A stretch of 64,000 nucleotides of DNA. Source: Notolepis coatsorum (Eukaryota > Chordata > Actinopteri > Aulopiformes > Paralepididae). This document shows positions 9,651 through 58,341 of the stretch, in pieces. Location of the stretch: assembly GCA_963971535.1 (NCBI GenBank), contig OZ020585.1:157924915-157988914 (forward strand), read 5' to 3'. Each line of letters begins with the position of its first letter. Positions within the stretch are counted from its first letter, which is position 1. The notes below the pieces were generated by a model. It did not search any database. It saw only the letters and a list, made by a program, of their open reading frames with translations, and had not been told where the DNA came from. A program made the translations under genes and the position numbers.

Positions 9651-10490
9651 GTTCATTTTCCATCTCACCCTTTTCAAGTGGGTCCCATCTTTTTTCAAAC
9701 ACCGCGCAAATGTGGCCTGTTCGGTGTCCACTGTGAAGGGCTGACGAAGCAGGTGAATTACCTGATTGATGAAGGGATGTCAACTGGTAAAGGCAGCAAT
9801 GCCGTTATCAGCTATGTGGATCATTTCTTCACCAACTATGGAGTTGGAGAAAAATCAGTGGACCTGCACTGCGACAATTGCTCCGGGCAAAATAAAAACA
9901 ATTATGTCTTATGGTATTTTGCGTGGCGTACTATTCACAAACTTCACCTGCAGCTTCCGCTCCACTTCCTAATTGCAGGCCACACTAAGTTTGGCCCCGA
10001 CTGGTGCTTCGGTTTGATAAAGCAGGTCTACAGGAAGACTGCGGTCGACACCCTGGCAGGCATCGCAGACATCGTCAGGAAAAGCTCTGCAGTGAAAGGA
10101 GTCAATATCCCCCAACTTGTCGGTCGCGAAGATGGCACAGTGTATGTTCCAAGCTACGACTGGCAACAACATCTGGGAGGCTTCTTCAAAAGATTCCCAC
10201 AAATAAAGAAATACCAGCACTTCAGCTTCGATGCCAACAGTCCTGGCATGGTGACGGCGAAATTACACTGTGACGATACAGAGCCATTCACGTTTCAGCT
10301 GTTGAAAGACCCAAAACGCTACCCAACCATCTCTGGTTTTCCTGTCCTCCCCCCACCTGGTCTAGACAACGACCGACAGGAATATCTTTATAAGGAGATA
10401 AGACAATACTGTTCTGATGACGCAAAAGACATTACATGCCCACTCCCAACGTCTAGAGCACCTCAGAACAAGAAGACTGTACGATGTTAG
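9651..10490 (+). CDS. DUF7869-like transposase-type protein, terminal exon E
   Basis: Open from the acceptor to a TAG at 10488-10490, about 279 codons. It encodes QVGPIFF and RKCGLFGV, then VNYLIDEG, LHCDNCSGQNKNN, AGHTKFGPDWCFG, YQHFSFD and a C-terminal SDDAKDITCPLP. The Asp-Asn-Cys-x-Gly-Gln-Asn-Lys-Asn block and the GHTKFGPD block are what one expects of an RNase H-fold (DDE-like) nuclease core; that is inference, not shown. The exon is phase 0 with exon D. Unlike exons C and D it has no lesion, so either the breaks upstream are recent or this exon can still be used. Candidate AATAAA signals lie at 10946 and about 11201. A GTG at 9678 has no role as a start. Confidence 0.7.
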   Translation, partial: VHFPSHPFQVGPIFFQTPRKCGLFGVHCEGLTKQVNYLIDEGMSTGKGSNAVISYVDHFFTNYGVGEKSVDLHCDNCSGQNKNNYVLWYFAWRTIHKLHLQLPLHFLIAGHTKFGPDWCFGLIKQVYRKTAVDTLAGIADIVRKSSAVKGVNIPQLVGREDGTVYVPSYDWQQHLGGFFKRFPQIKKYQHFSFDANSPGMVTAKLHCDDTEPFTFQLLKDPKRYPTISGFPVLPPPGLDNDRQEYLYKEIRQYCSDDAKDITCPLPTSRAPQNKKTVRC

Positions 10491-11225
10491 ATACCATGGA
10501 GAAGACACATGGATGTAGAGCACACACACACACACACACACACACTGTACTAGCAGTCACTTTAACATGAACACACACACACACTCATGCTGCACACGCT
10601 CACAATGTAAGGTCACTTTAAAAAAATTAAACAAGAACAGGAGTGGTTCTTGTAGAGTAAAAGCTTTTGTAAAACTCATGTACATATACCTGATATGTCT
10701 TATTCTTATTACTTGTATTATTGCACAATGTCGCATTCTCATCCTATTGGATTCTTATTATTGCATTCTTGACTTGACTTGATAGTATAGTAGTACTAGT
10801 ATAGCATAGGGACATAGAAGAATTGTATTGTTGTGTACCGGTACATGTACATTATATTTTTATTATTATTACTATTGTTTTATTGCACAATCGTAGCGGG
10901 CATGGCCAACCGCATTTCACTGTATGCCCTGGTATGTATGCAATGAATAAAAAAAAGTCACTTTAAACTAAATGGAAAGGTCACTTTAAAGGAAAGAACC
11001 GATGTGGTTCTTGTATAGTTTAGATTATTGTAGTATAGCATAATGACAGAGTTGAAACTGTATTAGCATGTCTATTTTTATCATGCACATCGTATGCCTT
11101 CTTATTACCTGTTTATGTATTTTATTATTAGTATTATTGCACAATCGATGCAGGCATGACCACCCGCATTTCACTGTATGCCCTGGTATGTATGTGACTA
11201 ATAAACCTCTTGAATTGATTTGATA
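10491..11225. repeat. Tandem duplication of a 3'-end repeat, with CA repeats
   Basis: After (CA)n at about 10520-10600, two diverged copies of a block of about 300 bp follow (about 10608-10950 and 10965-11215). Each starts GGTCACTTTAAA and ends CCGCATTTCACTGTATGCCC with an AATAAA. This is probably a LINE or SINE 3' end duplicated in tandem; family not identified. Confidence 0.55.
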
Positions 11226-12152
11226 TTGTCTGCTGATTTTCGTCCAGTTGTCACATGAAAGGTGGTAACAAAGATAATGATAATGATAATAATGAGGCTT
11301 GTGTCTATCACTCCGCTGGCCAGTTCTACCAACTATGCATTAAAATTCCCTGCGGTCAACATAATTTCTTCCTATTTTGGTTGTAATTGTGTAATGATAG
11401 ATGTATAACCTGAACACTGTACATATCTGTTTTCAGGAAACACTGGGCTATACAAAGAATATGCTGTGATGTCACATGAATGTATAAATATATGGCCATG
11501 CATTTAATCTCTCTCTTTTTTATAAAATCATTATAGCCAACATGCAATATATCCCATTGATTGGTACAATGGGACAGACATTTGTTTTATACAGCTATAA
11601 CCTGCATTCTTTAAAAATATATCATTAATCAATAAAACAGATATTGGAATACATAAATAAAGGTTTTCAATTCAATAACTGAAATATACATTATTCAGAC
11701 TAGTAGTTATATTACTACTACAATACAAAATGTTTGATTTTGTATCTGATCTGTCAGCATGGCTGTCACAGCACTTAATTATGTTAATACTATTCAGGGG
11801 AGAGGTGTGGCTGGGAGGTATTGTTTACGCCCAGCAGAATCCTGGCAAAAGGTGTCAAATCTTTAAGAGCTGTTTTCTCTGCTTAGGTCTCTGGGGAAAA
11901 AAGACTGCTACAAGATTTAAAATTAGCACATCACAATAATAACATTCTCAGATTTCAAAGTATGACACATCATTTGAAAGCTTACATTCTGTACTTTCAC
12001 AATCTGGAAAAATCTGGAAAATGAAAAAATAGACATGTAGGCTATAGCACTGGTCGCGGTCACACTTATCAGTTGAAATAGTGTTTGGTTTGGCTCCTTG
12101 GTTTTTAGTAGTTAGTAATTGTTTCTAGATTAGAAGGACAATTAGGGGCCGG
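11226..12152. other. AT-rich flank containing a dispersed repeat
   Basis: No gene is seen. About 11775-12040 is clearly homologous to 55797-56070 (shared TCTCAGATTTCAA and TATGACACATCATTTGAAAG), so it is a dispersed repeat of unknown class. The rest is AT-rich and unassigned. Confidence 0.5.
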
Positions 12153-12258
12153 TGTAAGAGCCAAAGCTATATGTGTTTAGGTTATTGTATTATATGAATG
12201 TTTAATATTGATGGGATTTAGAGAGTCATTGAACCGTCGTATTTGTCATAATAGAGCA

Positions 12259-12486
12259 TTCTAGAACATAGAACCTTCTAGAACGTTTGTGGTGATGTCA
12301 TAATAGAACTTTCTAGAACATAAAACAGTCCATAACGTTTGGGGTGACGTCATAGTAGACTTTCTAGAACGTAAAACATTCTAGAACCACATGATGACAT
12401 CATGATAGAAAGTTATGGAACCTTCGTGATGTCACTGTATGATGTCATAACCGAAACATTCTAGAACCTTTGGGTCTCTATATAAG
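12259..12486 (+). promoter_or_regulatory. LTR promoter: heat-shock-type elements, CRE, TATA box
   Basis: TTCTAGAA occurs six times (12259, 12276, 12311, 12362, 12379, 12459). At 12271-12283 the order GAA-nn-TTC-nn-GAA forms a contiguous three-unit heat-shock element. A perfect CRE octamer TGACGTCA is at 12345-12352, and TGATGTCA/TGACATCA variants flank it. CTATATAAG at 12478-12486 is a good TATA box, predicting a start near 12510. Regulation by HSF1 or CREB/ATF is inferred from motif matches only. Confidence 0.65.
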
Positions 12487-12534
12487 CGGGTGTTTCCTCA
12501 GAACGGGTCTTTTTGCGGGACTGAATAGCAGCTA

Positions 12535-12681
12535 ATGGATGGACTCAACCATGTACTGAAGCCAGAAGCCAACAAGTGGATTTACGGCTTTCACATTACG
12601 AAGGAATTTTCATGTGTCGAGTCGGCGGTGATTTTGGAGACTGGGAAAATACAGTTTTCTTACCTTGTAGTATACGTGTAG
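12535..12681 (+). CDS. 48-codon ORF inside the LTR, downstream of the TATA box
   Basis: ATG at 12535 begins an uninterrupted 48-codon frame ending TAG at 12679-12681, with residues such as LKPEANKWIYGFHITKEF. It would be the first ORF on an LTR transcript starting near 12510, hence an upstream ORF for the gag-makorin message. The second LTR copy (from 19508) keeps the same frame with one early residue change. The family is not recognised. It may be a genuine microprotein, a translational-control uORF, or chance. Confidence 0.4.
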   Translation: MDGLNHVLKPEANKWIYGFHITKEFSCVESAVILETGKIQFSYLVVYV

Positions 12682-12988
12682 CTTGTATTAGTACTTGTAG
12701 CTAGTAGGAGCCACTTGTAGTAGTATTTGTAGTAGGAATATTTAGGAAAGTAGATTTAGGACCACTTCTGTAAAGAGAGACTTTGCAAATAAACCATTTG
12801 GATATCTTTACTTTGCACTGGAGCGGCTGTGGACATTGCTTTTCTTTATCAACGACGGACTACTCACAAGTAAGTTATTTGACCAGTGGAGTGGATCGTC
12901 GGCCCTCACAATAGTAAGAAAACTCTGTTCCAGGAGGAAAAGGGATCAACACAAACTACTGGAGCGCTGAAAGAAGGATAACAACAAA

Positions 12989-15055
12989 ATGTCGAAACTT
13001 AAGAAGGGTGAGAAGACACAAAAGGTCCAGGAGGAAAAGGTCCGTAATGCCATTAATAAAAGGACGTCTACGTTAGGTCATCTAACTGGTCACATGAAGA
13101 AGATGAATCAATTAATGGATGCGGACGACGACGGTAATTTGGAAGGTGTACAGACAGGATTGGTAGAATTCAACAGTCTGCTCGGAGAGTTCTGTGAGCT
13201 TAATACCGCAGTCCAGGCGGCAATAAGCAAAAACATAAGCAAGACATCAAAAGAGGAGAGGAAGAACGATCAGGATGAATGGTTCACGCCGAAGGCTGAC
13301 ACATTTTACAACTTCACAGAAAAGGCTGGTGTATGGATGGAGGAGGTGCATAAGCGTACAGCGGAGTCTAGGAAGCACCAAGATGAGATCAAGCCTGAAG
13401 ACAGTGCATCCGGCATCGTAGAGGGGAAAAGGTCTAGAGCACCATCCACTACCTTTTCCAGAACATCATCAGCAGGCGTGCGTCTGAAAATTGACTTAGA
13501 GAGGGCAGAGTTGCTAGCCCAGGCTTCCGCTCTAAAACAAAAACGACAACTCGAGGAACAGGAGGCTCTGCTCTTGGCTAATGAGGTTAAGCTAAGAGCA
13601 GAGAGAAGAGCAGAGAGAGAGGAGTTACAGGTCCGGACTGCTTTAGCTGCCTTGGAGGCTAAGTGCAAAGTACTGGCAGAGTACGAGGGCCAGCCAGCCG
13701 CATCCAGAGTGTCCCGTAGGGATGGAATGGACTCGTACATAGATAAAAGGATTTCCGTCGTAGCACCAGCTCACGGGCAGGCTAGGCCTGCTCTCGAGGC
13801 CGTAGCAGAAAAGGAAGAACCTGTTTACAGTAGCAGCTCCAGAGCACCTGGCGGTGCTATGCAGAAAGAACAAGAGTCTAAGCAACAAGAGACCCAACGA
13901 GCCAGGGTGGATTTCCCAGTGAGGCAGCAATGCCATGCTACGCTGCCCCCTCAACAGACGGGGAATTTTGGAAATGGATACATCATCTCAATGGCGTATA
14001 TAGACAAGGCGCTGGACTGGCTCCGCTCCTTTGGCTCCTGGCTCCGCTATCTCACTGGATGCCTCAACGCCAAGTTCAGCGACCATGCCGAATTTGTCAA
14101 CCTACAAGCCCAGGAAGCCCTACACCCTCTCTTCGGCAATATCACAGATGGAAACAAGAGCCAAGCTAAGGCTCACAAAGATGAGAAGACATACAGAAAG
14201 AGCGGCGCTCAAGGAAGCTTCACAACAGCTGCTACAGCAGTCAAGAACCCGGCAGAGACTAAAGCAAGGACCAAGGGGGATACACTCTGTGCCTTCTTCA
14301 ACCCTTGCCTCTTCTGCCAAGGAGAACATGCCATTGAGCAATGCAAAAAGATGAAGAAGTCTCTTCACAAGGATAAGATAGATTTTCTCTGGAGTAACGG
14401 CCTATGTTTCAGCTGTCTGAAACAGGGTCACCCGAGCAACGCCTGCCTAGAAAAGATGAGCTGCCAAGTCTGCAAGCTTACCCACCCTACAGTTCTACAT
14501 ATTAAGAAGAATGCCGCCTATGATGAAGCAAGGCACAGAGGCTTTCAGGCGTGCATCGAGTCTCACAAGAAGGACATGGAGATCTCGGTTGCCATCCAGC
14601 GCAGCAAGGACATGATGTGTGGCGTGTGCATGGAGGTGGTGTTTGAGAAGACCCACCCCAGCAAGCGCCGCTTCGGCATCCTGTCCAACTGCAGCCACTG
14701 CTACTGCCTGAAGTGCATCCGCAAGTGGCGGAGCAGCAAGCAGTTCGAGAGAAAGATCACCATGTCTTGCCCAAAGTGTCGAATCACGTCCAACTTTGTG
14801 ATCCCGAGCGAGTACTGGGTGGAAGACAAGGAGGACAAGCAGAAGCTAATTCAGAAATACAAAGACGGCATGGGGAAACAACCGTGTCGATATTTCGACG
14901 AGGGTCACGGGACCTGCCCGTTCGGCTCCAACTGCTTCTACAAGCATGCCTTCCCCGACGGGCGCATAGAGGAGCCCCAGCCCCAGCGGAGGCAGGTGGG
15001 GTCCAGCGGGGCCTTTTGCATCTTCGACCAGACTGACCGAACGGATGGACTCTGA
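12989..15055 (+). CDS. Chimeric Gag-makorin protein (BEL/Pao Gag fused to MKRN1-like RING E3)
   Basis: One 688-codon frame with no stop. Residues 1 to about 508 are BEL/Pao-like Gag: a charged N-terminus, a long coiled coil (about 165-235), a short remnant of the central Gag domain ([14 protein letters not shown]), then [14 protein letters not shown] (C473, C476, H481, C486, a CCHC knuckle) and a second Cys/His cluster ending HPTVLH (492-504). From about 509 the sequence is makorin, closest to MKRN1: the ESHKKDME Cys-His linker, a complete C3HC4 RING (C544-C547 to C594-C597), [10 protein letters not shown], and a C-x9-C-x5-C-x3-H zinc finger (C633, C643, C649, H653). The N-terminal makorin fingers and C-terminal tail are absent. 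Codons become GC-rich at about 14515, marking the join, and there are no introns in the makorin part, implying a cDNA source. Makorins are RNA-binding ubiquitin ligases; ligase activity of the fusion is inference. The last two bases of the Leu codon abut an inserted LINE, which supplies the TGA. Confidence 0.85.
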
Positions 15056-15106
15056 AGATGAATGAATGAATTATTTTATTTTGAATGTTTACAAATAAAA
15101 AAACAA

Positions 15107-15590
15107 GGGGCGGTCAGGTGGCGTAGCGGAGATTGCGTTCGTCACCAAACGCCGGAGACGCTGGATTCGCCTGTTCGAATCCAGCTCACAGCTCCGGCGT
15201 TGTCACCAGCTTGACTGGCCGTTCACACTAATACAATTGGCTGTATTAGAGGGTGGGAAAGCTGGCGGGGTGGGTCCGGGTCGTTGTAAACAGCGACTCC
15301 TACAGTTCGGTCGGGGCGCCTGCTCAGCGCAGATAGGATCTAAGGGGGGTAGTGTGATCCTTCCACACGTTACACCCTCTCAGTGAGAGTCAGCGCTGCC
15401 AGGTGAAAAGAAGCGGTTGATTGGCTAGACGTGTGTCGGAGGAAGCACGTGGTAGCCTCCACTCTCCCAGACCGACTGTGGGGGGTATGTGCGCAGCGAC
15501 CAGGGAGGGGATTGGGAATTGGCATAACGACTAACATTGGGATGGGAGAAAATCGGAGGAAAAAGGAGGGGGGAAAAGACAAATAAAAAA
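15107..15590 (+). mobile_element. tRNA-derived SINE with 14-bp TSD
   Basis: A 484-bp insert in the LINE 3' UTR, flanked by perfect 14-bp repeats AAATAAAAAAACAA (15093-15106 and 15591-15604). The head has Pol III box A (TGGCGTAGCGG, 15119) and box B (GTTCGAATCC, 15173). The body is unrelated to tRNA and the 3' end is A-rich. It is a SINE, not a tRNA gene; family not named. Confidence 0.85.
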
Positions 15591-15949
15591 AAATAAAAAA
15601 ACAAACATAATTTTTCGAACATTTTCACAAATAAACAAACGAAAAGGATAGGTTTGAAGCCGAAGGCTTATAGAGCAACCTACCCCTAATTCAAAAAAAC
15701 AAATTCAAAAAAAGTTAGTTTTCAAAATATAACAAAAATAAAGCAACAATCAAAAATCAACAAAAAACGATCCAGAAAAGAACAAAAAAAGTTAAAGTTT
15801 GCAAGATAAAACAAACAAACAAAAAAACAACAATCAACAAAAAAAAACATTCCTGAAAAGAACATAAGCCAACATAGGAAAAATCTAAAATTCATCTGCA
15901 ATACCAGAGTTTCATGGTAGAAAAAAAATGTATAAAAAAAGATTGTAGG

Positions 15950-18307
15950 TTAAATTGTACTATAAGATTCTAGAACCCTGTTTTTAAACATCTTTTTCAA
16001 CTTAAAAATACTCCTGCTGTTTTTTATTTCATCCGGTATATTGTTCCAGAGTTTCACTCCTTTAACTGACACAGACATACTTTTAAGTGTGGTTCGAGCT
16101 CTAGGCTGTTTCAAATTGAGTGTTCTTCTTAAATTATACGTCACCTCTCGTTCTTTAAACAACATTTGTAAGTTACATGTTGATGACTTCTAGCTTTAAA
16201 AACTATCTCTGCTGTTTTAAGGTCAACTAAGTCGAGGAACTTTAATGCCCTTAGTTAAAAAAACAGTGTGTTTGTAGGATGGAGATAACTAACATTGTTC
16301 ACAGCCCTTATTGCCTTTTTCTGTAAGATGAAAATAGGATTCAGATTAGTTTTGTATGTGTTTCCCCAAGTTTCTATACAGTAAGTTAGATATGGTAATA
16401 AAAGAGTACAATAAATTGTGTATAATGATTTCAAATTTAATATGTGTCTGGTTTTTCTTAAGATACCCAAGCTACTCGCTGTTTTTTTCTTTACATAGTT
16501 AATATGAGTTTTCCAGCTGAGGTTTTGGTCTATCACGACCCCTAAAAAAGTATATTCATTTACTCTTTCAAGATGAACATTATCTATGCATATCTCTACT
16601 TGAGTATCCGGATGTATTTTTTTTTAAAGAAACAGGCCTATAATTTGTAAAAAAAATAAAAAAATCTCCTGCTTTATGTATTGGAATTACTTTGGCTGTT
16701 TTCATTTCAGTTGGAAAGGTCCCCATCCTAAAAGATAGATTACATATGAAAGTAATTGGATCTACAATTTCTTTGATTCATTTTTTAATAAGAGACATGT
16801 CTAACCCATTCACATCTGTAGATGTTTTATTCTTGAGATTGTTTACAATAGCAATTATTTCCATATTAGATACGTCATACAAAAAGATTGTGGATGGATT
16901 TCTATCAATGTATTGTTCTTCAATAGCTCCCCCTTGTGGAGGCTTGATCTTCCTTGCAAGATCTGGGCCAACATTTACAAACAAATTATTAAACTCCTCC
17001 ACTACCTCATGCATGTTGGTTATTTCCGTTCCATTTACAGAAAAATTATCAATATAGCCTGGTTTGTTATTTGATTTTCCAATTATTGTGTTTATAATTT
17101 TCCATGTTCCTTTAATATCATTTTTATTAATTTCTAGTAAGTTATTATAATAATCCTTCTTACGTTTTCTTATAGTATCTATTAATTTATTTTTATATAT
17201 TTTATATTTGATTTATTTCTGTTTAGTTCTATGCTTGATGACATCTCTATAAAGAGTATTCTTCTTTTTACAGGCATTTGAAATTCCTTTTGTTATCCAT
17301 GGTTTATCTGGCTTCCTATTGTCGGCTACTTTGCTGCACAATAGGACAGAAACGATCATATAAAGTCATGAATGTATTCAGAAAGCAGCCATATGCTGAG
17401 TCCACATCAGTTGCTTCAAACACCTCAACCCATTGCTGGATAGCCAGTTCCATTTTGAGTGCCCCTATTGAGTCCTCTGAAAGGTGCCTTTTATTACACA
17501 TTTTCTGAGATTCCCTCTTTGGCTGATTATTATCTTCTATTATTACAAAAACTGGTAAGTGATCTGTTATATCATTTGTCAGCAGTCCGCACACAATTCT
17601 ATTATTTATAACATTAGTGAAAATGTTATCGATCAAAGTAGCAGAATGAGAGGTTATTCTGCTAGGCTTATTAATTATCGGGAAGAGGCCTAGGCTATGC
17701 ATGGTTGATGTAAAATTATCTATATTTGTTTTTTTGTCTGGGTTTAAAAGATTGATATTAAAGTCGCCACAAATGAATGTAACCTTTTGCTCTATGTTAG
17801 TAAGTAGCTCTTCCATCTTTTCTCTGAAATTCTCAATGCTTGAATTAGGCGCTCTATACACACAGCTAACCAAGATGTTTTTCTGCTTTTCCCTTTCAAT
17901 CTCCACTGTAATGTACTCACAGAGGTCTTCAATAGCAGCACTCATGTGGTCAATAACCTTATACTTTAGTTTTTTTATCAATGAATAAAGCAGTCCCTCC
18001 TCCCCCTTTGTGGATTCTGTTTATACATCTAAAATCATACCCATCCAACTCAAAACACTCTTCTTTCTCTTGGGCAATCCAGGTATCAGAAATTGCTACT
18101 AAACTAAACTGTAGAAAATTGGCTCAGATAGTCTTTGATGTGTGAAAATTGTTTGTACATACTCCTGATGTTAAAGTGTATGATTGAAAATCGATTTGCA
18201 TGATCTACTTCACCATTTACTTGCTCTTCTGTATAGTAGTCACACACTATATCAATATTATTAAAGAGGTTGACCTCAGGGTCAATGTCTACATTGAAAT
18301 CATGCAT
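15950..18307 (-). pseudogene. LINE ORF2 (endonuclease-reverse transcriptase) with RT core deleted
   Basis: On minus, ORF2 opens at 18307 and reaches the first endonuclease motif (FSIIHFNIRSM), then frameshifts. The rest of the APE-type endonuclease (17981-17316) keeps CGDFNINLL and the TDHLPVF motif in place of the usual SDH. RT N-terminal sequence follows (17014-16778) to TNYRPVSL at about 16640. The text then jumps straight to YTFLGVVIDQNLSWK (about 16540), so the RT palm with its catalytic aspartates is missing. The C-terminus (WNNIPDEIKNSRSIF) ends at 15950. Confidence 0.8.
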
Positions 18308-18700
18308 AAAGAGAGGTTAAATCATCAACAAAACAAATCCTAGCACAATAATAGCCTATAATAATCATAATAATAACCATTAATCCTAATAATAAATCCT
18401 TATCATCCTCAGACAATTTGCTTAACGCAGTCCAATTTCTCATGCAGTGACTATTTACAGACCCAAAAAAGTATGGCAAATAATTTATCAAAAATGGGAA
18501 CAAAGCAGAGCCTATGACACACGTGAGTTTGATATCAGCATGTGGAAAGAATAATATTTCATAATCAGCCCTTTGTCTAAGCATTAGTCTTGCAAGACCC
18601 AAAAAAGCCAACATAGGACTAGAGTTCATGCAGCAGTGAGCTATGCAGAAATATTTGACCCAGAAGGCAGTCCAAAACACCGTCAAAACAGAGAACACAG

Positions 18701-19411
18701 TCATTTATAAGGGTCAAGGTCTTTTAGCTCTCTTATCATGATTACCTTCTCTGTGTCAGGTGTATCGCCCTTCAACTTAATGAGCACTTTGCAGTCTCTG
18801 GTCCACGTTGCTTTAATCTTGTTGTTTTTTCTCATCAGACGTGCTTCTCTGGCAATCTCGGCATTCTTTGCTGTTAGGTGTTCATTTATATAAACGTTGG
18901 TTCCCTTCAGCTTTTTCCCTTGCATTAGCAGCTCCGTCTTATGTTTGCGGTTTACAAACCGAATAATGATTGCAGGTTTGGCCTCTCGATCTCTTCTCGG
19001 AAGAATGTGACAAGCAGAAATGTTGTTCTTGTCAAGGTGGATGTCCTTGCTTCTCAGGAAGGTAGCGACTTGCATCTCCAGCGATTGTTGGTCTTCATGG
19101 CGAGGCTCCTCACCTCCCATTGCTGAAAGTGCTGCTGCATACGACCTCGGCTTCACCTCCATTCCACTTATGATTACATCGTCCTTTCTTGTGAAAAGCT
19201 CCAGTTCCTGGACTCTCCGTTCCAGCTTCTCCAGATTGTTCACTTTCGATTCCAGCTTCTTTATTTTCTCCTCTCTTTCCTCCAGCATATTCCTGAGTTC
19301 CTTAACTTCGGTCAAGAGGTTCACAAGTTCAGTTTGTTTTTTCGCTACTTCTCTCACCTCTCGCGCCAAGCTCTCCAATGTTTTGCTCATTTCTTTAATG
19401 TTATTTTCCAT
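18701..19411 (-). CDS. LINE ORF1 protein (coiled coil plus RRM-like)
   Basis: An intact 236-codon ORF. Residues about 1-75 form a heptad-patterned coiled coil (KELRNMLEEREEKIKKLESKV). A middle region with DDVIISGMEV and an RRM-like fold (AIIIRFVNRKHK) and a basic C-terminal domain (INEHLTAKNAEIAREAR) follow, the layout of trimeric ORF1 RNA chaperones. The neighbouring ORF2 is dead, so any ORF1 product could only act in trans. Exact LINE clade is uncertain. Confidence 0.75.
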   Translation of the reverse strand: MENNIKEMSKTLESLAREVREVAKKQTELVNLLTEVKELRNMLEEREEKIKKLESKVNNLEKLERRVQELELFTRKDDVIISGMEVKPRSYAAALSAMGGEEPRHEDQQSLEMQVATFLRSKDIHLDKNNISACHILPRRDREAKPAIIIRFVNRKHKTELLMQGKKLKGTNVYINEHLTAKNAEIAREARLMRKNNKIKATWTRDCKVLIKLKGDTPDTEKVIMIRELKDLDPYK

Positions 19412-19507
19412 CTTGCCTTCTGTAGTTAAGATTGCTTTCGTAGGTTGAATTTTAGTCAGTCAAAGATCAATTGTTTGAGAGCAGCATGCTTCCACAACCA
19501 GTTGCCA

Positions 19508-20285
19508 GACTCAACCATGGACTGAAGCCAGAAGCCAACAAGTGGATTTACGGCTTTCACATTACGAAGGAATTTTCATGTGTCGAGTCGGCGGTGATTT
19601 TGGAGACTGGGAAAATACAGTTTTCTTACCTTGTAGTAGTACTTGTAGCTTGAATGAATGACTTTATTTGACAATATAAAAAATAAACATGTGACAGTCA
19701 GGATATACTGCCAAGGATGAAACACAAATATATATATACAAATATTTCCATTGTGGTCCTTGTAGGGGGGTAGGAGAGTGTGATGCTTAGACATGCATCA
19801 TACAAAACATGACATCACAACACATCACATATACCATTTAACATTTATATACATAACAGACTCATACAACATGCAAGGGTGCCTTAAGCTAAGTGTCTAG
19901 GTTAAGTATAGTCCCTTTTGAGCCATGTCTTCAGGCTGGACTTGAATCTAACGGCATTGTCTACGATTTTCAGGTCACTGGGCAGACTGTTCCAATAGAC
20001 AGCTGCTGAATACAGAAATGACTCCTTCCCCATAATACAGCTTGTATTAGTACTTGTAGCTAGTAGGAGCCACTTGTAGTAGTATTTGTAGTAGTGACAG
20101 GAATATTTAGGAAAGTAGATTTAGGACCACTTCTGTAAAGAGAGACTTTGCAAATAAACCATTTGGATATCTTTACTTTGCACTGGAGCGGCTGTGGACA
20201 TTGCTTTTCTTTATCAATGGACGTACTACTCATGAGTAAGTAATTTGACCAGTGGAGTGGATTGTCGGCCCTCACATTAGTAAGG
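19508..20285 (+). mobile_element. 3' LTR fragment of the BEL/Pao-type element
   Basis: Matches the 5' LTR from its GGATGGACTC (12537) onward. The first ten bases lie at 15043-15052, fused in frame to the end of the makorin segment; the rest resumes at 19508 after the LINE. The upstream 385 bp with heat-shock, CRE and TATA motifs are absent. A 386-bp LINE fragment interrupts it at 19653. It keeps the internal splice-donor-like GAGTAAGTAA. Confidence 0.7.
19653..20038 (-). mobile_element. Short LINE 3' end inserted in the 3' LTR
   Basis: Flanked by AGCTTG (19647-19652 and 20039-20044). On minus it encodes the end of an L2/CR1-like RT (a WNSLPSDLK-type motif) and ends in an ATTCATTC tail. It is 5'-truncated, as usual for LINE insertions. 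Confidence 0.7.
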
Positions 20286-20945
20286 AAACCAATAATATAC
20301 CAGTAAATTAGAAATAGTCTACTGTTATAACAATAAAGTAGTAGTAGTCTACTGTTATACCAGTAAAGTAGAAGTCATATACTGTTATACCAGTAAAGTA
20401 GAAATAGTCTACTGTTATACCGGTAAAGTAGTAGTCTACTGTTATACCAGTAAAGTAGAAGTTAGGGATGTCCCGATAGCATTTTTTTGCTCCCGATCCG
20501 ATTCCGATCATGTGATATTGAGTATCTGCCGATACTGATTTTTCCCGATCCGAACTTTCGGCAATGCATTAAGAAAAAAAAATAAATAATGCAAGTTGAC
20601 CCTCAAAGTGTTTTATTTTTATTTATATCCATTATATCCAACATGGATATGGCTTTTTTAACAGTATATCCATTATATCCAACATGTATAGGCTATAGCT
20701 TCTTTTTTTCACTTGCAGCATTGGATCAAAATTTAAAAAAAAATTAAAATAAAGCTTATCAGTGGTGCACCAAAGAAATGAAAGAATTAAAAACTCCAGA
20801 TTTTTTCCCCCCGATTCCGATCTTCTGAAAATCATGTGATCGGCCCCGATCTCCGATCACGTGATTGGATCGGGACATCCCTAGTAGAAACCGTCTACTG
20901 TTATACCAGTAAAGTGGAAGTAATCTACTGTTATATCTACAATTT
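20286..20945. repeat. Minisatellite, about 30-bp unit, split by a MITE
   Basis: About six diverged copies of a unit containing CTACTGTTATACCAGTAAAG lie before 20462 and two more after 20884. The array begins directly at the end of the LTR fragment. Confidence 0.75.
20463..20883. mobile_element. hAT MITE inserted in the minisatellite
   Basis: Inverted ends TAGGGATGTCCCGAT and ATCGGGACATCCCTA, with flanks GTAGAAGT and GTAGAAAC matching at six of eight positions, consistent with a diverged 8-bp hAT target duplication. The interior is AT-rich and has no transposase. Confidence 0.7.
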
Positions 20946-21507
20946 AACTTAAAACTCCCATATTTGGAAATACTTTTTCAGTGCTTGTGCACATATTCAT
21001 ATTGTGTTCATATATTTAATATTTTAAGCATTTTATGAACAAACTAAATTCATTCGATTGGACATTTGATTAATCATATCAAGCGGAGAACGGAGCAATC
21101 TAACAACCCTCGGCACCGGGCTGTTTCTCCCCTCCCCTTTACTAGAGACGAAAAAGTAACCCTAGCGCCCCCTACTGGTTGATACCGTTCATACGGCAAC
21201 TACCCAGAAACCTTGCGGCAAGGGTAGACGGACACGGCTGCTACATCTGTACATTTGCTGTCTCTGATGGGCCTGGGCCTACTAACACTCAACCTGGGAA
21301 AGTCGCATTTTGGACTCTGCTCGCATTCAGAAACTGTGCCTTTAAACGAGCCGTTTGTACCTCTGTCCTTATGATGTCACAGGAAAAAGCTCAATGTAGT
21401 GTGGGGCCCTTGACTCGTGTGACAAATGTGTGTGTACAAAAAGGCGGCTTGCTCGTGTACAAAAAGGTTGCTTGCTTATCTTTTCTACTTTTTTTTTTTT
21501 TTTTTAC
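20946..21507. other. Unassigned intergenic sequence
   Basis: No gene or known element recognised. The segment is AT-rich until about 21060, then more GC-rich with no convincing ORF, and ends in a T run. Confidence 0.4.
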
Positions 21508-21931
21508 TTAAAGGGGAACTATTTTACTATTTCTTTCACTATTTGGGCACTTTTACACAATTCCTGTGAGTCTATGGAACACCTCTGTAATATTTTTTAT
21601 TTTTTTATTCATTGTTTTGTATTTCTAATCAAGTTCTCAAAACAGCATTTTTCTACCTCAAGATCTCGAGCCGTTTTGAGCCTGGGCTCCAACCACTGTT
21701 TGCAGCTCATCGTGTACCTCGCCATTATCATGCAGCGGTGTCTCTCTGACATCACAAATCATCACATTTTCAGATGACTCAGTTCAGTGAGGGTGAATAT
21801 TGTGAGAGGAGAATTGGAAGAATGCGCCAATATGAGAATTAGAGACATAGATCATATTAATATAAGTTCACATAGCTAGGAAACAATGCTAAACACTCAA
21901 AAAGGCCATTTATAAGATAGTTCCCCTTTAA
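21508..21931. mobile_element. Kolobok-like MITE with TTAA target site
   Basis: Perfect 11-bp inverted repeats AGGGGAACTAT...ATAGTTCCCCT sit directly inside TTAA at 21508-21511 and 21928-21931. TTAA duplication fits Kolobok or piggyBac; termini starting AGGGG favour Kolobok. It is non-coding. Confidence 0.6.
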
Positions 21932-22100
21932 AATATCTTTCTGACATTAAAGTGGAGATGAAGCATAGCGATAAATACATATTCATAGCATCACATTAGT
22001 ATTTAGATAAGCCACAGAAAAAATCACGTTATAAAAATAAGCAGTTTCTAAGAAAAAACTATTTGTTATGTGCATTTTTTAAGCATTTATCATTATGGGC

Positions 22101-22124
22101 GCGGCCATTTTGTTGCTGACGTCA
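22101..22124 (+). promoter_or_regulatory. YY1-like and CRE motifs ahead of the THAP relic
   Basis: GCGGCCATTTTG (YY1-type core) is followed by a perfect CRE, TGACGTCA, at 22117-22124, about 70 bp before the THAP ATG. Promoter role is inferred from motifs and position only. Confidence 0.35.
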
Positions 22125-22191
22125 TGGGGCTGGTTTGGTGTATACACTGCTGGTTAGCTGCCTATAGTGAATGGGTCAGTCAGTAAATAAA

Positions 22192-22500
22192 ATGTTGCCT
22201 ACAAAACAACGGGACCGCGGTGGTTCTGTTTGTATTGCTCCTGGCTGTTCAAACTAATTTTACCGTGTGAAAGAGAGGAAAGTTGGTTAATTTCCACAAA
22301 CTACCAGTGAAAAAAACAGTGTTGTTGGCACGTTGGCTCAGGCTGGCTGCACTCAGGCGGCGCGACCAGCCTGTTGGACAGGGAAGGAGGATCTGCAGCG
22401 AACACTTCATTGCCTCGGATTATGTTGTTGGGGTGGGATGTTTGTCCAGAAGACCACTAATCAGCTGAAGCCGGACGCGGTTCCCTCGGTCTTCGACAGA
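22192..22500 (+). pseudogene. THAP-domain (C2CH) relic
   Basis: ATG at 22192 leads to CIAPGCSN, the first two cysteines of a THAP DNA-binding domain. A TAA and a one-base shift follow, then FHKLPVKK, the conserved Trp in LARWLRL, RICSEHF (Cys and His ligands), and, after another shift near 22460, KPDAVPSVF, the AVPTIF-type box that closes the domain. All THAP landmarks are present but in three frames. THAP domains occur in host THAP proteins and in P-element and Kolobok transposases. A Kolobok-like MITE lies immediately upstream, which makes a transposase origin plausible but unproven. Confidence 0.65.
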
Positions 22501-22593
22501 CAGACCGGCCCAGGCAGTTCAGCGCCGCGGAGCATTCAGCCTGCTGGCTACCTAGATCCACTTCAACCAGCGTCGCGGAGCATTCAGCCTGCT

Positions 22594-22850
22594 GGCTACA
22601 CAGCTTGTCGGTGTGCTAATAGCCTCGGCAAGCTAACGGTAGCTGGCTACACAGCTTGTCGGTGTGCTAATAGCCTCGGCAAGCTAACGGTAGCTGGCTA
22701 CACAGCTTGTCGGTGTGCTAATAGCCTCGGCAAGCTAACGGTAGCTGGCTACACAGCTTGTCGGTGTGCTAATAGCCTCGGCAAGCTAACGGTAGCTAGC
22801 TCCAGCAGCTTGTCGGTGTGCTAATAGCCTCGGCAAGCTAACGGTAGCTG
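22594..22850 (+). repeat. 51-bp minisatellite (five copies)
   Basis: Unit starts GGCTACACAGCTTGTCGGTG. Spacing is exactly 51 bp, so each unit adds 17 codons without shifting frame, and the THAP-relic frame stays open through the array. Four copies are near identical; the last is partial and diverged at its start. Confidence 0.9.
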
Positions 22851-22869
22851 CCAGCAGGCTGAATACATA

Positions 22870-22978
22870 CCTGCATATATCGGTATCGGTTGATATCGGT
22901 TGATATCGGTATCGGAAATTAAGAGTTGGACAATATCGGAATATCGGTATCGGTAAAAAAGCCAATATCGAGCATCCC
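22870..22978. repeat. hAT MITE one-sided remnant
   Basis: Repeats of ATATCGGTATCGG end in AATATCGAGCATCCCTA, the inverted TAGGGATGCTCGATATT terminus of a common fish MITE. The opposite end is missing. Confidence 0.45.
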
Positions 22979-23076
22979 TAATTGAAATCTACGCTAATTG
23001 TACGTCATGACCAGCTAGTGTTTCAGTAAGTTGCATTTTGAGAAGTCACAACTTGATTTACAGACATGCGTTAGAC

Positions 23077-23645
23077 CAGTGTTTCTCAACTGGTGGGTTG
23101 TGACCCAAAAGTGGGTCGCGGGGCCATTTTGAGTGGGTCGCGGTTGTGTGTTAAAAAAAAATTAAAAATTAAATTTTTAATAGTTTTTTTTGCACTACCT
23201 ATCTTTGTGAAAGTGGCTTCCCAGCTCTGGTCCAGCTGAAGACAAAGCAGAGGAACAGATTGGACATTGAGCATGACCTCACAGTTGCTTTGTCTACCAT
23301 CACCCCAGACTTTGAGACTCTTGTCAGGAGCAAACAACATCCTTTTGTTGCAACCCCAGTTATCCCATTAGTTCCCCCAAACTTAGGTCTGTTATGTTAA
23401 GCTAAGAAATCTGCTAAGAAGCATATATTATTTATTATTATTTTATTTCATTGGGTTTTTAGCCCTAGTTGCACTTTTGTTGCACTTTTTTGTGTTTATT
23501 TCATGTTTTTAACAGTGCATGAAAGATTGTGTATTACTGTAAAAAAAACTTTTTAAATAAATCATAGTGGTTAAAAAATTTGGGTCGTGACTTAATGACT
23601 AAGGAAAATGTTGGGTCCCGAGGCTAGACCAGTTGAGAACCACTG
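23077..23645 (+). mobile_element. Short hAT element with a ZBED5/SCAND3-like transposase fragment
   Basis: Termini CAGTGTTTCTCAACTGGT and (inverted) CAGTGGTTCTCAACTGG are flanked by CGTTAGAC and CATTAGAC, a 7-of-8 target duplication. A C-terminal transposase fragment on plus (LKTKQRNRLDIEHDLTVALS, about 23230-23340) matches the end of ZBED5/SCAND3-type hAT proteins. An internally deleted, non-autonomous copy. Confidence 0.8.
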
Positions 23646-32775: not shown

Positions 32776-34149
32776 CGCTCTCAACCTACATCAGGCAGGG
32801 TTGGCCGGCAAGGACACCTGACGAGCTGCTTCCCTATAGCAGACTCCGGGACGAGTTGTCATGCTGGAACGACTCCTGCGTCGCTCGTGGGCTCTGTACT
32901 GTGGTCCCGAGTGTCCTTCGGGCGCGTGTCCTTGCTATGGCGCACGAGGGCCACTTGGGCATAGTCAGGCTCAAACAGCGGTGTCGCGACTTGGTGTGGT
33001 GGCCAGGCATCGACAGGGAAATCGAGACCCTGGTCAAGGACTGAGGACTGTACCGCCTGTCTTCTGAGCGGGAAGACCAGGGCCCCAGACCCGCCCCCAC
33101 CCATGCAGCCATTGGACTGGCCGTTCCAACCCTGGGAGCACCTGCAGCTCGACGTCTGTGGTGAACTGCACGGGGTACCGCATCACCAGCATTTCCTCAT
33201 TGTGATCTACGACCTCCACTCCAAGTGGCCTGAGGTGGCGCCCGTGGGCTCAGTCACAGCCGGGGTGCTGATTGAGATTCTCGAGTCCCTGTTCACATGC
33301 TGGGGCCTGCCCAAGAGGATCACGACAGACAATGGCCCCCAAATGATCTCCCACGAACTGGCCTCCTACCTGGGGGGTAAGGGGATACGTCATATCCGCA
33401 CGTCGTTCTACAACCCGGCTGCGAACGGGGGGGTGGAACGGCTGAACCAATCCCTGAAGAATGGCATCAGGGCCCACCTGGCACAAGGGTGCACATTCAT
33501 CAACGGTCTCCAACAGATGCTCCTGCACTACAGGGCTACTCAACACGCCACCACAGGCGTCTCCCCAGCCTCCCTCATGCTAGGGCGCGAGTTTCAGCTG
33601 CCCCTGGACAGGCTGCGCCCTACTCCGGCTCAGGCTCCAGCCCACCCGCTTCAAGCCACAGTCAACGCACGCCAGCGCCGGATGAAGGACCGTTTCGACA
33701 GGACCCGACGTGCGAGACCACCTACCATCGCCGTCTCAGACTGGGTCAGGATTCGGCGACCCCACCGGGACAACAAGCTCCGGTCATTCTGGTCTGACCC
33801 GGTCCAGGTCAGACAGCAGCTTGGCCCGGCCTCATTCAGGCTGGCTGATGGTACGCGTTGGCATGCTGGCCGACTGCGCAGGGTGCAGGCTCCCGCTGCC
33901 CCGGGACAGGGTGTGCCCGCGGCTGTAGCTCTGCAGGACAGACGATTCAATGATGTTGCAGCCCCAGCACCCGCGGCTATAGCTCTGCAGGACAGACAAT
34001 TTGATGATGTTGCAGCCCCAGTACCCGCGGCTCAGCCTGAGGCTGCGGGACCTCTGCCGTTGGCTGTTGCAGTGCCTGGGCCCCACCCACTCCGAGCGCG
34101 CAACAGGCCTGCACACCTGAATGACTTTGAGACTGAGTATCACTCCTAG
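32776..34149 (+). pseudogene. Gypsy integrase (HHCC-DDE), frameshifted
   Basis: The first segment (to 33044) holds the tail of RNase H/linker and the zinc-binding domain (AHEGHLGIVRLKQRCRDLVWWPG). At 33035-33050 GGACTGA/GGACTG is duplicated (7 nt), causing a stop; the shifted frame supplies the CxxC (DCTAC) and is open to 34149. The catalytic core shows D (LQLDVCGEL), D (TTDNGPQ) and E (NGGVERLNQ) with 35 residues between the last two. A C-terminal WVRIRRP...SFWSDPVQV GPY/F-type region follows, then an 18-residue in-frame tandem repeat (33916-34023). Confidence 0.85.
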
Positions 34150-56838: not shown

Positions 56839-58341
56839 TTATTCTGCCGGTGGCCTCTGCAGACATGACCTTTGAAAATGACCTTTCAGTCCACAGATCC
56901 AGCAAACCTGTCCTTGTTCCCTTGGTTGTGGGACTCTGTGGCCCGTCCGCCTGTGATCGGATGGCCCCAGGGTCATCAGGCCCAGAGCATGTCCTTGCTG
57001 TCTGCCATCACCGCCATGGTTCCCTTGAGCCTGTTCTGGGGAGGGGCCTGCTATCTGTCCGGGCAACGGGGCACACGGCATTTCTTGATCACGGCGGCCT
57101 AACACCGACGCCCGAAGCATGATCTCAATAGCTGTACCATCTAACAGTGCAGTCTTTCTCGCCAGTTCTTGTTCCAGTCTCTGAGTCTCGTGTGCGGCTT
57201 GACCGATCTCCAGCCGTGTCTTCATCAGATCTCGATGAACTGCCTCGTGTCGTTCGAACGCTGATATAAACGCTCTCTGTTGTCTATAGGACGACGCCTC
57301 TTCCCCCATCTCAGCACTGGCGGTTTGACTTCCCATCGCTGGGCCCCGCCCCTCATCTTGGCTCTGGTGCTGAGGGGGTCCTGGACAGGGGGAGCTTACG
57401 GGCAGTGGACACTGCACTTGATACCGACCTTGGTTTTGCCCACGCCCACCTCCTCTGTTCCCCCCTCGAGTGCCTCCCCTTCTGGCTCTATAGCCATTCT
57501 CACATTCCCATGAAATATGTCCGATCTCCCCACACTTCCAGCAATCAACCTGCCGACCTTTGTTTCCATTCGCGCCCCCTCTCCTGCCTCCACTTGATCC
57601 CCGTGCCTGCCAGGTTGTCCCTCTTGGGGTTTGTTGTTGTTCCGGCGCAGGACCCCCTTGTGGCCCCAACTGGGCCCGTCTCTGGCCATTTGGTTCTCCG
57701 TTGGAGCCCGTCTCCCCTCTTGGCTGTGTGGACTGGATTAGGCCTTGGAGGTATTCCACTACCTGTCCAGCCTCAGTTGGCTGTTGTTCTAGAGGGAGGC
57801 ACGTCCTCCGCTCTTCCTCCACCCTGGCCCTTGTTGACTGGCTCCTAGTCATCGGGCCACGTCTCTCAGGTTGGTACTGATGGTGGGGGTGGGGGAAACC
57901 TAGGCACGGGACACAGGTGGGCTGTAGAAACTGTTTATGTATTATCTCATACCTGCTGTCGGTTTCTATTTCAGCCGTACGGCCAGCGTCAACTCCCTGG
58001 GACTGCTGTAACAACATCGCTCTCCTCAGTTGCTTTCGTTGTCTCTTGGTTAACTGGCAGTCTCCTGCAACGGACACTTCAGCGTGGATCGGCTCGGGTA
58101 ATACAGTTGTCTCTGGGTCGCTCGCAGCAACGACCCCCTGTGGCGGAGTTAAAGACATTATTTCCAGTCTCTCCGTCACACTGGTCTCAGGAGGGGAGTC
58201 GGTCACATTCAAGTCAATCAGGTTAACGTCACTGTTCAATTCGGTCAATGAAATGTCTGCAGAAGTTATCGGCATTCCCCCCCCATTGGCCTGACTGTTG
58301 GCCATTTTTATATTGCTTCTATCTATTACACTATGGCTCAA
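56839..58341 (-). CDS. Gag-like protein with two separated CCHC knuckles and RGG-rich region
   Basis: A 500-codon ORF without lesions. The N-terminal 160 residues are acidic then basic (TKRQRKQLRRAML). Residues about 240-305 form an Arg/Gly-rich (RGG-like) region around the first knuckle CWKCGEIGHISWEC (C267, C270, H275, C280). Residues about 345-405 look helical (HETQRLEQELARKTALL). A second knuckle CWICGLKGHFQRSC (C480, C483, H488, C493) closes the protein. Both fit C-x2-C-x4-H-x4-C, the retroviral/retrotransposon nucleocapsid pattern, but the 200-residue separation is unusual. Met13 (58305) is an alternative start. No pol, primer site or LTR pair was found nearby. It may be an LTR-element gag, a LINE-type ORF1, or a gag-derived host gene. 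Confidence 0.55.
   Translation of the reverse strand: MSHSVIDRSNIKMANSQANGGGMPITSADISLTELNSDVNLIDLNVTDSPPETSVTERLEIMSLTPPQGVVAASDPETTVLPEPIHAEVSVAGDCQLTKRQRKQLRRAMLLQQSQGVDAGRTAEIETDSRYEIIHKQFLQPTCVPCLGFPHPHHQYQPERRGPMTRSQSTRARVEEERRTCLPLEQQPTEAGQVVEYLQGLIQSTQPRGETGSNGEPNGQRRAQLGPQGGPAPEQQQTPRGTTWQARGSSGGRRGGANGNKGRQVDCWKCGEIGHISWECENGYRARRGGTRGGNRGGGRGQNQGRYQVQCPLPVSSPCPGPPQHQSQDEGRGPAMGSQTASAEMGEEASSYRQQRAFISAFERHEAVHRDLMKTRLEIGQAAHETQRLEQELARKTALLDGTAIEIMLRASVLGRRDQEMPCAPLPGQIAGPSPEQAQGNHGGDGRQQGHALGLMTLGPSDHRRTGHRVPQPREQGQVCWICGLKGHFQRSCLQRPPAE

Follow-up and report, generated by a model that had tools for sequence, protein, structure and literature searches.

Acute transforming retroviruses carry gag-onc fusions. 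The mechanism of capture in these viruses has been summarized, and capture of host mRNA is also known for endogenous retroviruses of vertebrates (PMC4299795). The subject of the present analysis is a 64,000-nucleotide stretch of the genome of the fish Notolepis coatsorum (contig OZ020585.1, positions 157,924,915–157,988,914; the window), in which a BEL/Pao element (PMC3118150) with long terminal repeats (LTRs) carries part of the makorin gene mkrn1 in frame behind gag. The arrangement resembles that of the gag-onc retroviruses in that a host mRNA, represented by spliced exons, lies in frame behind Gag, pol has been lost, and a helper would be needed; it also has two unlike joins, one attributable to RNA processing and one that probably arose during reverse transcription. 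It differs in that the carrier is a BEL/Pao element in the germ line, is present in multiple copies, and has left its founder in the host gene, and in that the cargo is an RNA-binding RING ligase with no known growth effect.

Crocodilian endogenous retroviruses with KIT-ligand or nectin3 inserts are likewise germ-line LTR elements of vertebrates that captured host mRNA, exist in several copies, and keep their open reading frames (ORFs), with in-frame insertions and deletions (indels); however, KIT-ligand has an ORF of its own, located between pol and env, nectin3 stands in the place of env, and purifying selection is reported (PMC4299795), whereas the fish family has a Gag fusion in a BEL/Pao element and fast amino acid change. 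LTR-mediated retroposition by template switching is known, and maize Bs1 also has host mRNA inside an LTR element, with short overlaps at the switch points that are similar to the 3′ join described below (PMC5408686); unlike Bs1, the fish element has a 5′ join that points to splicing from an intronic element of the captured gene itself. Gag-linked Masc retrocopies are known on a moth W chromosome, and Plutella Pxyfem resembles the fish family in combining gag fragments with spliced host mRNA, in many copies, in tandem clusters, and with one chromosome enriched, but it acts through small RNA (PMC9674220). Because the reading frame is kept in the fish family, action as a protein rather than a small RNA is favored here. 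MKRN3 and the mammalian mkrn1 retrogenes are intronless mkrn1 copies as well but have been ascribed to LINE-1 (long interspersed element 1) rather than to an LTR element; the survey that made this assignment found retrocopies of mkrn1 exclusively in mammals and in none of five fish (PMC3022923). No report of a Gag–makorin fusion was found in the literature searched, and none was recognized by name, length, or domains among the 13 Gag relatives or among the matches listed from a search with the makorin half (120 of 407) and one further search (120 of 225).

The following history is, as a whole, highly probable. A BEL/Pao copy would have inserted into intron 3 of mkrn1 on the same strand and lost pol, so that gag read into LTR sequence with a GT donor. 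A transcript would then have been spliced from this LTR-derived donor to mkrn1 exon 4, giving a gag::mkrn1 (exons 4–7) mRNA in one frame, and during reverse transcription the chimeric RNA would have become joined, at an overlap of ATGG, to a remnant of BEL pol together with a 3′ LTR. In this way makorin would have replaced most of pol. The product would then have integrated with a 5-bp target duplication, multiplied with trans help from other BEL elements, and spread later by tandem and segmental duplication, with the window copy among the segmental ones. The fusion protein appears to have been under selection for a good part of this history, during which the frame and the RING and C3H ligands were kept while other residues changed fast. 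The sequences themselves show the founder locus, the spliced exons with the splice join, the 3′ join, the LTRs and target duplication of L031, and the retention of frame and ligands; the help in trans, the template switch at the 3′ join, the making of a protein, and its target go beyond them. Host-gene capture by LTR elements is usually inferred once the founder has disappeared. In this fish, a single genome still shows the founder insertion with its donor, the acceptor, and both joins, which makes every step on the way from an insertion in an intron to a mobile chimera testable. If the retained frame reflects a working protein, it would be a naturally evolved Gag-targeted E3 ubiquitin ligase in a vertebrate, near to what Fv1 and TRIM5 do separately.

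The Gag–makorin reading frame

The ORF at 12989–15055 is open over 688 codons, as the initial annotation of this DNA had stated, and both of its halves have matches in databases. All 13 listed relatives of the front half are Gag or Gag-Pol type proteins, several of them from fish, and one (P0009) contains Peptidase_A17 and RVT_1 domains; this half is a BEL/Pao Gag. The back half is mkrn1, with fish makorin-1 proteins 73–86% identical among the best matches listed. It contains a RING and a C3H finger of the makorin type with 12 of 12 zinc ligands, at the positions first assigned to them (C544 to C597 and C633 to H653), and it is intronless, as had also been claimed, because native exons 4, 5, and 6 are directly joined. 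The annotation placed Gag and makorin in one frame with the end of Gag near residue 508. The common frame is borne out but the boundary has to be moved, since element-derived sequence continues up to residue 520 and makorin begins at A521 (14549). The sharp rise in GC content described at 14515 is not seen; in 300-bp segments, GC content passes from 0.49 to 0.54–0.55, a level that is already present at 13600–14050.

Neither partner is complete. The Gag part of the window copy has in-frame deletions in the capsid region relative to two other copies described below, L031 and L032, and Pfam DUF1759 was not found in it (L031 scores above and L032 below the cut-off). The makorin part starts with exon 4 and ends at GSSG within exon 6, where LTR-derived codons take over, so that the last ∼14 codons of the ORF are LTR sequence. 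The N-terminal C3H fingers, the Cys-His motif, the PAM2 motif (placed after PMC6805484), and the full C terminus of makorin are absent from the window fusion. We regard the cargo as a pair of domains derived from makorin rather than as a makorin. The ligase MKRN1 binds RNA and gains access to poly(A) by way of poly(A)-binding protein and PAM2 (PMC6805484); because the fusion is without this part, Gag would have to supply the address. Searches with the whole window ORF gave only weak RING and C3H scores in Pfam and no match among solved structures.

The joins to mkrn1 and pol

Exons 3 to 6 of native mkrn1 were located on contig C35 of the 3.42-Gb genome, with exon numbers inferred from the order of the matches; over exons 4–6, the nearest matches of the native gene are makorins from gadids, smelts, and carps (up to 95%). 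When the sequence spanning the join of the window was searched at the DNA level, a gag copy was found inside intron 3 of this gene (C35:33932091–33932203, 94%). This BEL copy is on the same strand as mkrn1, has gag and an LTR piece without intervening pol, and reads GGCACAGAGGCTTTCAG and then GTGTGG at the joint; the GGCTTTCAGGTGTGG of the joint recurs in the upstream LTR of the same copy. BEL copies without makorin continue with GGCACAAGAAGG at this position in all eight examined (L057–L064). The acceptor of native exon 4 is CCTCAG^GCGTGC, and cutting at CAG^GTGTGG and at this acceptor and joining the ends gives the window sequence at 14548/14549, in frame. The last base of the donor is C35:33932198, and the first base of exon 4 is C35:33934323. 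The sequence before the join in the window therefore consists of Gag and ∼9–11 bases of LTR, ending at what is a GT donor in the founder copy. The 5′ join is, on this comparison, a product of chimeric splicing, with the founder still in place.

The initial annotation had explained the 5′ join by microhomology-driven template switching at VLH, a proposal in keeping with the VLHP that makorins carry at a similar place. It is unsupported because the mkrn1 part starts exactly at the exon-4 acceptor, 48 bases after the VLH codons, and is preceded by LTR bases that end at a GT donor. Native exon 3, which encodes VLHP and ends VLHPTDHGQRSEHTK, is absent from the fusion. We consider that origin refuted and hardly credible. 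Exon 3 of makorin was also rejected as the source of a 14-residue segment of the fusion, as other fish and the native gene read VLHP there.

The exact joint is present at eight gag–makorin places (L001, L002, L003, L004, L016/L033, L020/L032, L040, and L041) on C6, C35, C9, C1, and C8, with differing deletions, and has been lost to deletions in other gag–makorin copies. An artefact of assembly or annotation might be suspected from the assembly gaps near some copies, such as the run of N in L033, but the recurrence of the joint and the separate target duplication of L031 make it next to inconceivable. In L052 (1–1288) and L065, gag is followed by the founder joint with one base changed (GGCAGAGAGGCTTTCAG) and by other repeated DNA at the splice position, and the two may represent another chimera made from that donor.

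The 3′ side is best preserved in L031 (on C4) and L032 (on C1), in which Gag with a capsid-type DUF1759 region is followed by makorin, a pol remnant (LTTEDPEV...), whose frame is kept in L032, and the 3′ LTR. The LTRs of L031 (TGTAAG...TCACA) are identical at 364 of 398 aligned bases, and the element is flanked by a 5-bp target site duplication, GTACT. Introns 4/5 and 5/6 are absent from the fusion, and in L031 and L033 sequence like exon 7, as recognized from other fish makorins, follows directly; native exon 7 was not found in L038. At the 3′ join of L031, L032, L033, and L040, which reads GAGGAGATGGGGACC, the exon-7-like GAGGAGATGG runs into pol GGACCT. For comparison, pol in L068, a copy that has no makorin, is CCATGGGGACC, with CCATGGGGACCTAACC at this point. 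The overlap between the two sides is ATGG, for which the makorin side was inferred from the conserved Met-Val of other fish, and a template switch is likely.

The LTR pair, the target duplication, and the pol remnant after makorin indicate that the L031 form was moved by reverse transcription, with makorin replacing most of pol. Spliced host mRNA is thus joined to element sequence on both sides, and with the joins, the LTRs, and the recurrence all found, the proposal is upheld that a retroelement transduced a ubiquitin ligase of its host and carried it fused in frame to Gag. An independent retrocopy with its own poly(A), the alternative that the annotation had raised against itself, does not fit, since pol follows makorin in L031, L032, L033, and L040 and a pair of LTRs with a target duplication is present in L031; a LINE-type retrocopy was rejected because makorin is followed by pol and LTR. 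Mobilization as a unit by reverse transcription is seen in L031 only, and the copies related to the window copy on C6 (type A) spread by DNA duplication.

The Gag and the pol remnant match BEL/Pao proteins (P0001–P0013), several of which have Peptidase_A17 or DUF1759 domains. No protease, reverse transcriptase, or integrase of its own was found in the family, in which pol is represented only by the short remnant after makorin in L031–L033 and L040. The four best pol matches (L053–L056) belong to a different BEL lineage, 37–41% identical to the gag and pol remnant of L032. Closer pol relatives are many at 80–97% identity among the matches listed, of which L068 was examined, and the genome has many BEL pol copies with open frames.

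Retention of the frame and the zinc ligands

A search of the genome with the makorin half gave 45 matches, which correspond to ∼35 related places (our own count) after removal of three native mkrn1 exons (C35) and of four matches to parts of other makorins (C9:176 Mb and C44) and after pieces of one place were merged. The 30 loci examined, L001–L030, are the best tblastn matches, and all but L015 have gag or LTR sequence near makorin. Recurrence of the junction, proposed from the outset as a check, is confirmed by three further copies with ∼99% identity to the window and by the join on other chromosomes, and it puts the fusion well outside what chance could produce.

In an alignment of 14 copies, 31 of 32 distinct coding indels, up to 885 bases long, are multiples of three, and 37 of 41 are in frame by our own count after addition of L011, L013, L022, L040, and L041. 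In contrast, only 2 of 23 control indels in the LTR, LINE, and short interspersed element (SINE) sequences of largely the same copies are multiples of three (Fisher P = 6e-11); a wider LINE and SINE control that includes A-rich sequence gives 8 of 47. In gag alone, for which open frames could not have been favored by the search, 21 of 22 indels in the 14-copy alignment are in frame. The 14-copy count stands apart from L001 (the window), L019 and L020 (the places of L031 and L032), and L016 (the place of L033), as well as from L003, L006, L009, L011, L012, L013, L015, L022–L030, L040, and L041; L003, L006, L009, L011, L012, L013, L022, L029, L040, and L041 were compared afterwards. The events added are six in frame (27, 9, 3, 3, and 192 bases and an 81-base deletion of L022) and three out of frame. 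A transposable element insertion in L009, the lost N terminus of L012, two in-frame differences between L040 and L033, possibly the same as events already counted, and an insertion of 2 bases that follows the C3H finger in the L022–L030 arrays were left uncounted, as were gaps in pairwise blastn matches, which are too fragmented, and an alignment with L012, L013, and L022 that was distorted by unrelated N termini. The frame that bears the RING runs beyond the C3H histidine in 28 of the 30 loci. It extends back to the start of gag or of the sequence examined at the locus in 16 (L001–L008, L010, L011, L014, and L017–L021) but not in L009, L012, L013, L015, L016, or L022–L030.

All 12 zinc ligands are unchanged in all 30 loci (23 distinct sequences), with 0 replacements against 7.7–8.2 expected under the observed mutation spectrum. 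A Trp and a Pro, which we take to be part of the face of the RING for the ubiquitin-conjugating enzyme (E2), are kept in 30 of 30. Synonymous changes in the makorin part number 25 against 40.4 expected (P = 0.0004), or 18 against 30.5 as unique variants (P = 0.001), and the stems have an excess of non-synonymous (N) over synonymous (S) changes: 14 N:4 S for type A, 12:2 for type B, and 16:2 for the arrays. Gag, with L033 left out, has fewer stops than a neutral sequence in its N-terminal part (3 against 9.2, P = 0.011) and its capsid part (0 against 4.0, P = 0.021); it has no synonymous deficit. The in-frame excess places the family above a mere fossil and indicates a frame kept by selection, as in domesticated Gag proteins, and because the frame and the zinc ligands are retained a protein product in the past is likely. 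In our reading, the fusion protein was once needed while it was changing, and some of the copies are drifting today.

Several observations weigh against this history, and many of them are what would be seen if the fusion were a neutral passenger: one splice capture, non-autonomous carriage, and decay, with the open frames as chance survivors of a young family. The 30 best tblastn matches favor unshifted makorin parts. Broken copies exist, the capsid, the knuckles, or the makorin C terminus is lost in many copies, four 1-base indels are out of frame (L013, L033, L040, and L041), and L014 and L015 have stops at the end of the RING. The Arg after the last RING Cys, presumably the linchpin, is kept in only 15 of 30 loci. 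The synonymous deficit is weaker when CpG and non-CpG sites are separated (P = 0.02 and 0.057). Recent changes look neutral in type B (15 N:6 S against 14.3:6.7) and type A (8:1 against 6.9:2.7). The makorin part as a whole shows no shortage of stops relative to the neutral expectation (5 against 6.8, P = 0.32; up to the end of the C3H finger, 2 against 6.1, P = 0.053), and the gag knuckle part has no deficit (2 against 1.9, L033 again left out). The ratio of non-synonymous to synonymous rates (dN/dS) by the Nei-Gojobori method (NG86), a comparison suggested in the initial annotation, is 0.89 for makorin between the window and native mkrn1, 1.38 and 0.62 between copies, with one pair having no synonymous change, and 1.03–1.22 for gag; with values close to or above 1, no purifying selection at the amino acid level is seen apart from the zinc ligands. 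An AlphaFold2 model of residues 509–688 had a predicted local distance difference test score (pLDDT) of 49, which is too poor, and was not used. Finally, the gag of the founder is not the closest to the window in the knuckle region (89% over 436 bases, against 88–95% over 117–436 bases in ten other BEL copies), which would be due either to later recombination in gag or to a short tree that is unresolved. Neutral carriage is nevertheless unlikely and, for the whole family, can hardly be maintained even now, given the in-frame coding indels compared with those next door, the unchanged ligands, and a RING frame that stops before the end of the C3H finger in only 2 of 30 loci.

For a selected protein, the most likely role would be that of a Gag-directed E3 ligase, the Gag part of which would bring the RING-C3H module to Gag particles or their RNA. 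More specifically, and only tentatively, Gag may have served as a targeting arm and the captured RING-C3H as a warhead, under selection that preserved the frame and diversified the deep branches, in an arms race (host restriction of BEL/Pao elements or self-defence of the element), with amplification on one chromosome. Fv1 is Gag-derived and TRIM5alpha is a RING ligase that acts on capsid, and a host-domesticated restriction family would combine both, in the form of a Gag-derived bait fused to an E3 ligase that would assemble together with BEL Gag and mark it. The frame and the ligands are retained in the LINE-bearing copies too, the type-A 3′ LTR lacks the unique 3′ region (U3) in the copies examined that far, so that the promoter would not be renewed by normal retrotransposition, the excess of amino acid change on deep branches is as in arms races, and the genome has many BEL pol copies with open frames. 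Such domestication is nonetheless rather doubtful, because most aligned copies have lost some or all of the Gag capsid, through which contact is usually made, and the tandem-array copies keep little Gag.

Copies on C6 and the structure of the window copy

Four copies on C6, including that of the window, are ∼99% identical over the parts compared, and two of the other three share extended flanks, which indicates segmental duplication. The part of the window at 11058–20691 corresponds to a copy at 129.62 Mb of C6 (L035 and L034) and that at 13696–23279 to a copy at 116.99 Mb (L042); for L002, at 150.23 Mb, the comparison covered 13013–16579 only. A second set, L005–L014, shares the LINE insertion of the window copy but lacks the zinc knuckles, whose loss left the frame intact where copies were aligned. 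L022–L030 are on small contigs.

Twelve of the 21 loci L001–L021 are on C6 (mainly 111–178 Mb), a chromosome that makes up 6.3% of the genome. On the 64.6-kb contig C3632, nine gag–makorin places 4.5–6 kb apart, two of them fragments, form a tandem array at 21264–63202. Both distributions would suit a selfish gene that aids its own spread by counter-defence of the element or by meiotic or sex-chromosome drive, for which the gag-linked Masc retrocopies on the moth W are a precedent (PMC9674220); the excess on C6 is partly due to segmental duplication, and we consider such a gene improbable.

The features of the window copy are listed in Table 1. The element tail to the left of the left LTR suggests an origin from a tandem LTR-internal-LTR arrangement. 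No target site duplication was seen around the window copy, in which the right LTR is truncated and the flanks are duplicated, and no pol remnant was seen between its LTRs, making it non-autonomous. With its capsid deletions, the loss of the makorin C terminus and the pol remnant, the LINE and SINE in its 3′ LTR, and its duplication on C6, the window copy is best described as a later derivative, not the founding element. The LINE was rejected as a part of the original capture, as L031, L032, L033, and L040 have no LINE match. An insert within it (∼15105–15590, boundaries approximate) is presumably a tRNA-type SINE.

Table 1. Features of the Gag–makorin element in the window
Feature	Position	Strand	Basis or remark
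Element 3′ tail, upstream of left LTR	12062..12152	+	Matches sequence preceding 3′ LTR in L031/L032
Left LTR (TGTAAGAGCC...CCTCACA)	12153..12911	+	Ends set by comparison with L031
gag: coiled coil, capsid region with in-frame deletions, zinc knuckles, to ...NAAYDEARH	12989..14537	+	ORF, Gag relatives, and copy alignment
GAGGCTTTCAG, at least GGCTTTCAG LTR-like; ends at splice-donor position of founder	14538..14548	+	Comparison with BEL copies
mkrn1 exons 4–6 without introns	14549..15010	+	RING C544–C597 = 14618–14779; C3H C633–H653 = 14885–14947
3′ LTR fragment giving last codons and stop codon 15053–15055	15012..15057	+	23-base match, 95.7%, to L031 LTR at 15014–15036
LINE within 3′ LTR	15058..19507	-	Endonuclease 17319–17981, ORF1-like 18704–19411
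Right LTR piece without U3	19508..20278	+	Interrupted by insertion at ∼19653–20038
Segmentally duplicated stretch	11058..23279		∼97–99% identity to other type-A places on C6

Elsewhere in the genome, ∼30 places (C27, C9, C35, C7, C32, C33, and small contigs) match one N-terminal C3H segment of makorin (query residues ∼7–54), mostly at 65–72% identity and most with one TAG, and form a second, separate amplified makorin fragment. In the remainder of the window, an open frame at 9678–10490 with Pfam DUF7869, a domain of unknown function, adjoins microsatellite DNA, and a 51-bp tandem repeat array at 22540–22860 is apparently different in the type-A duplicate L042. By eye, a 348-codon frame at 33103–34149 is integrase-like, as in retroelements, and a 500-codon frame on the reverse strand at 56839–58341, with CCHC-type knuckles (CWKCGEIGHISWEC and CWICGLKGHFQRSC), resembles the Gag of another retroelement.

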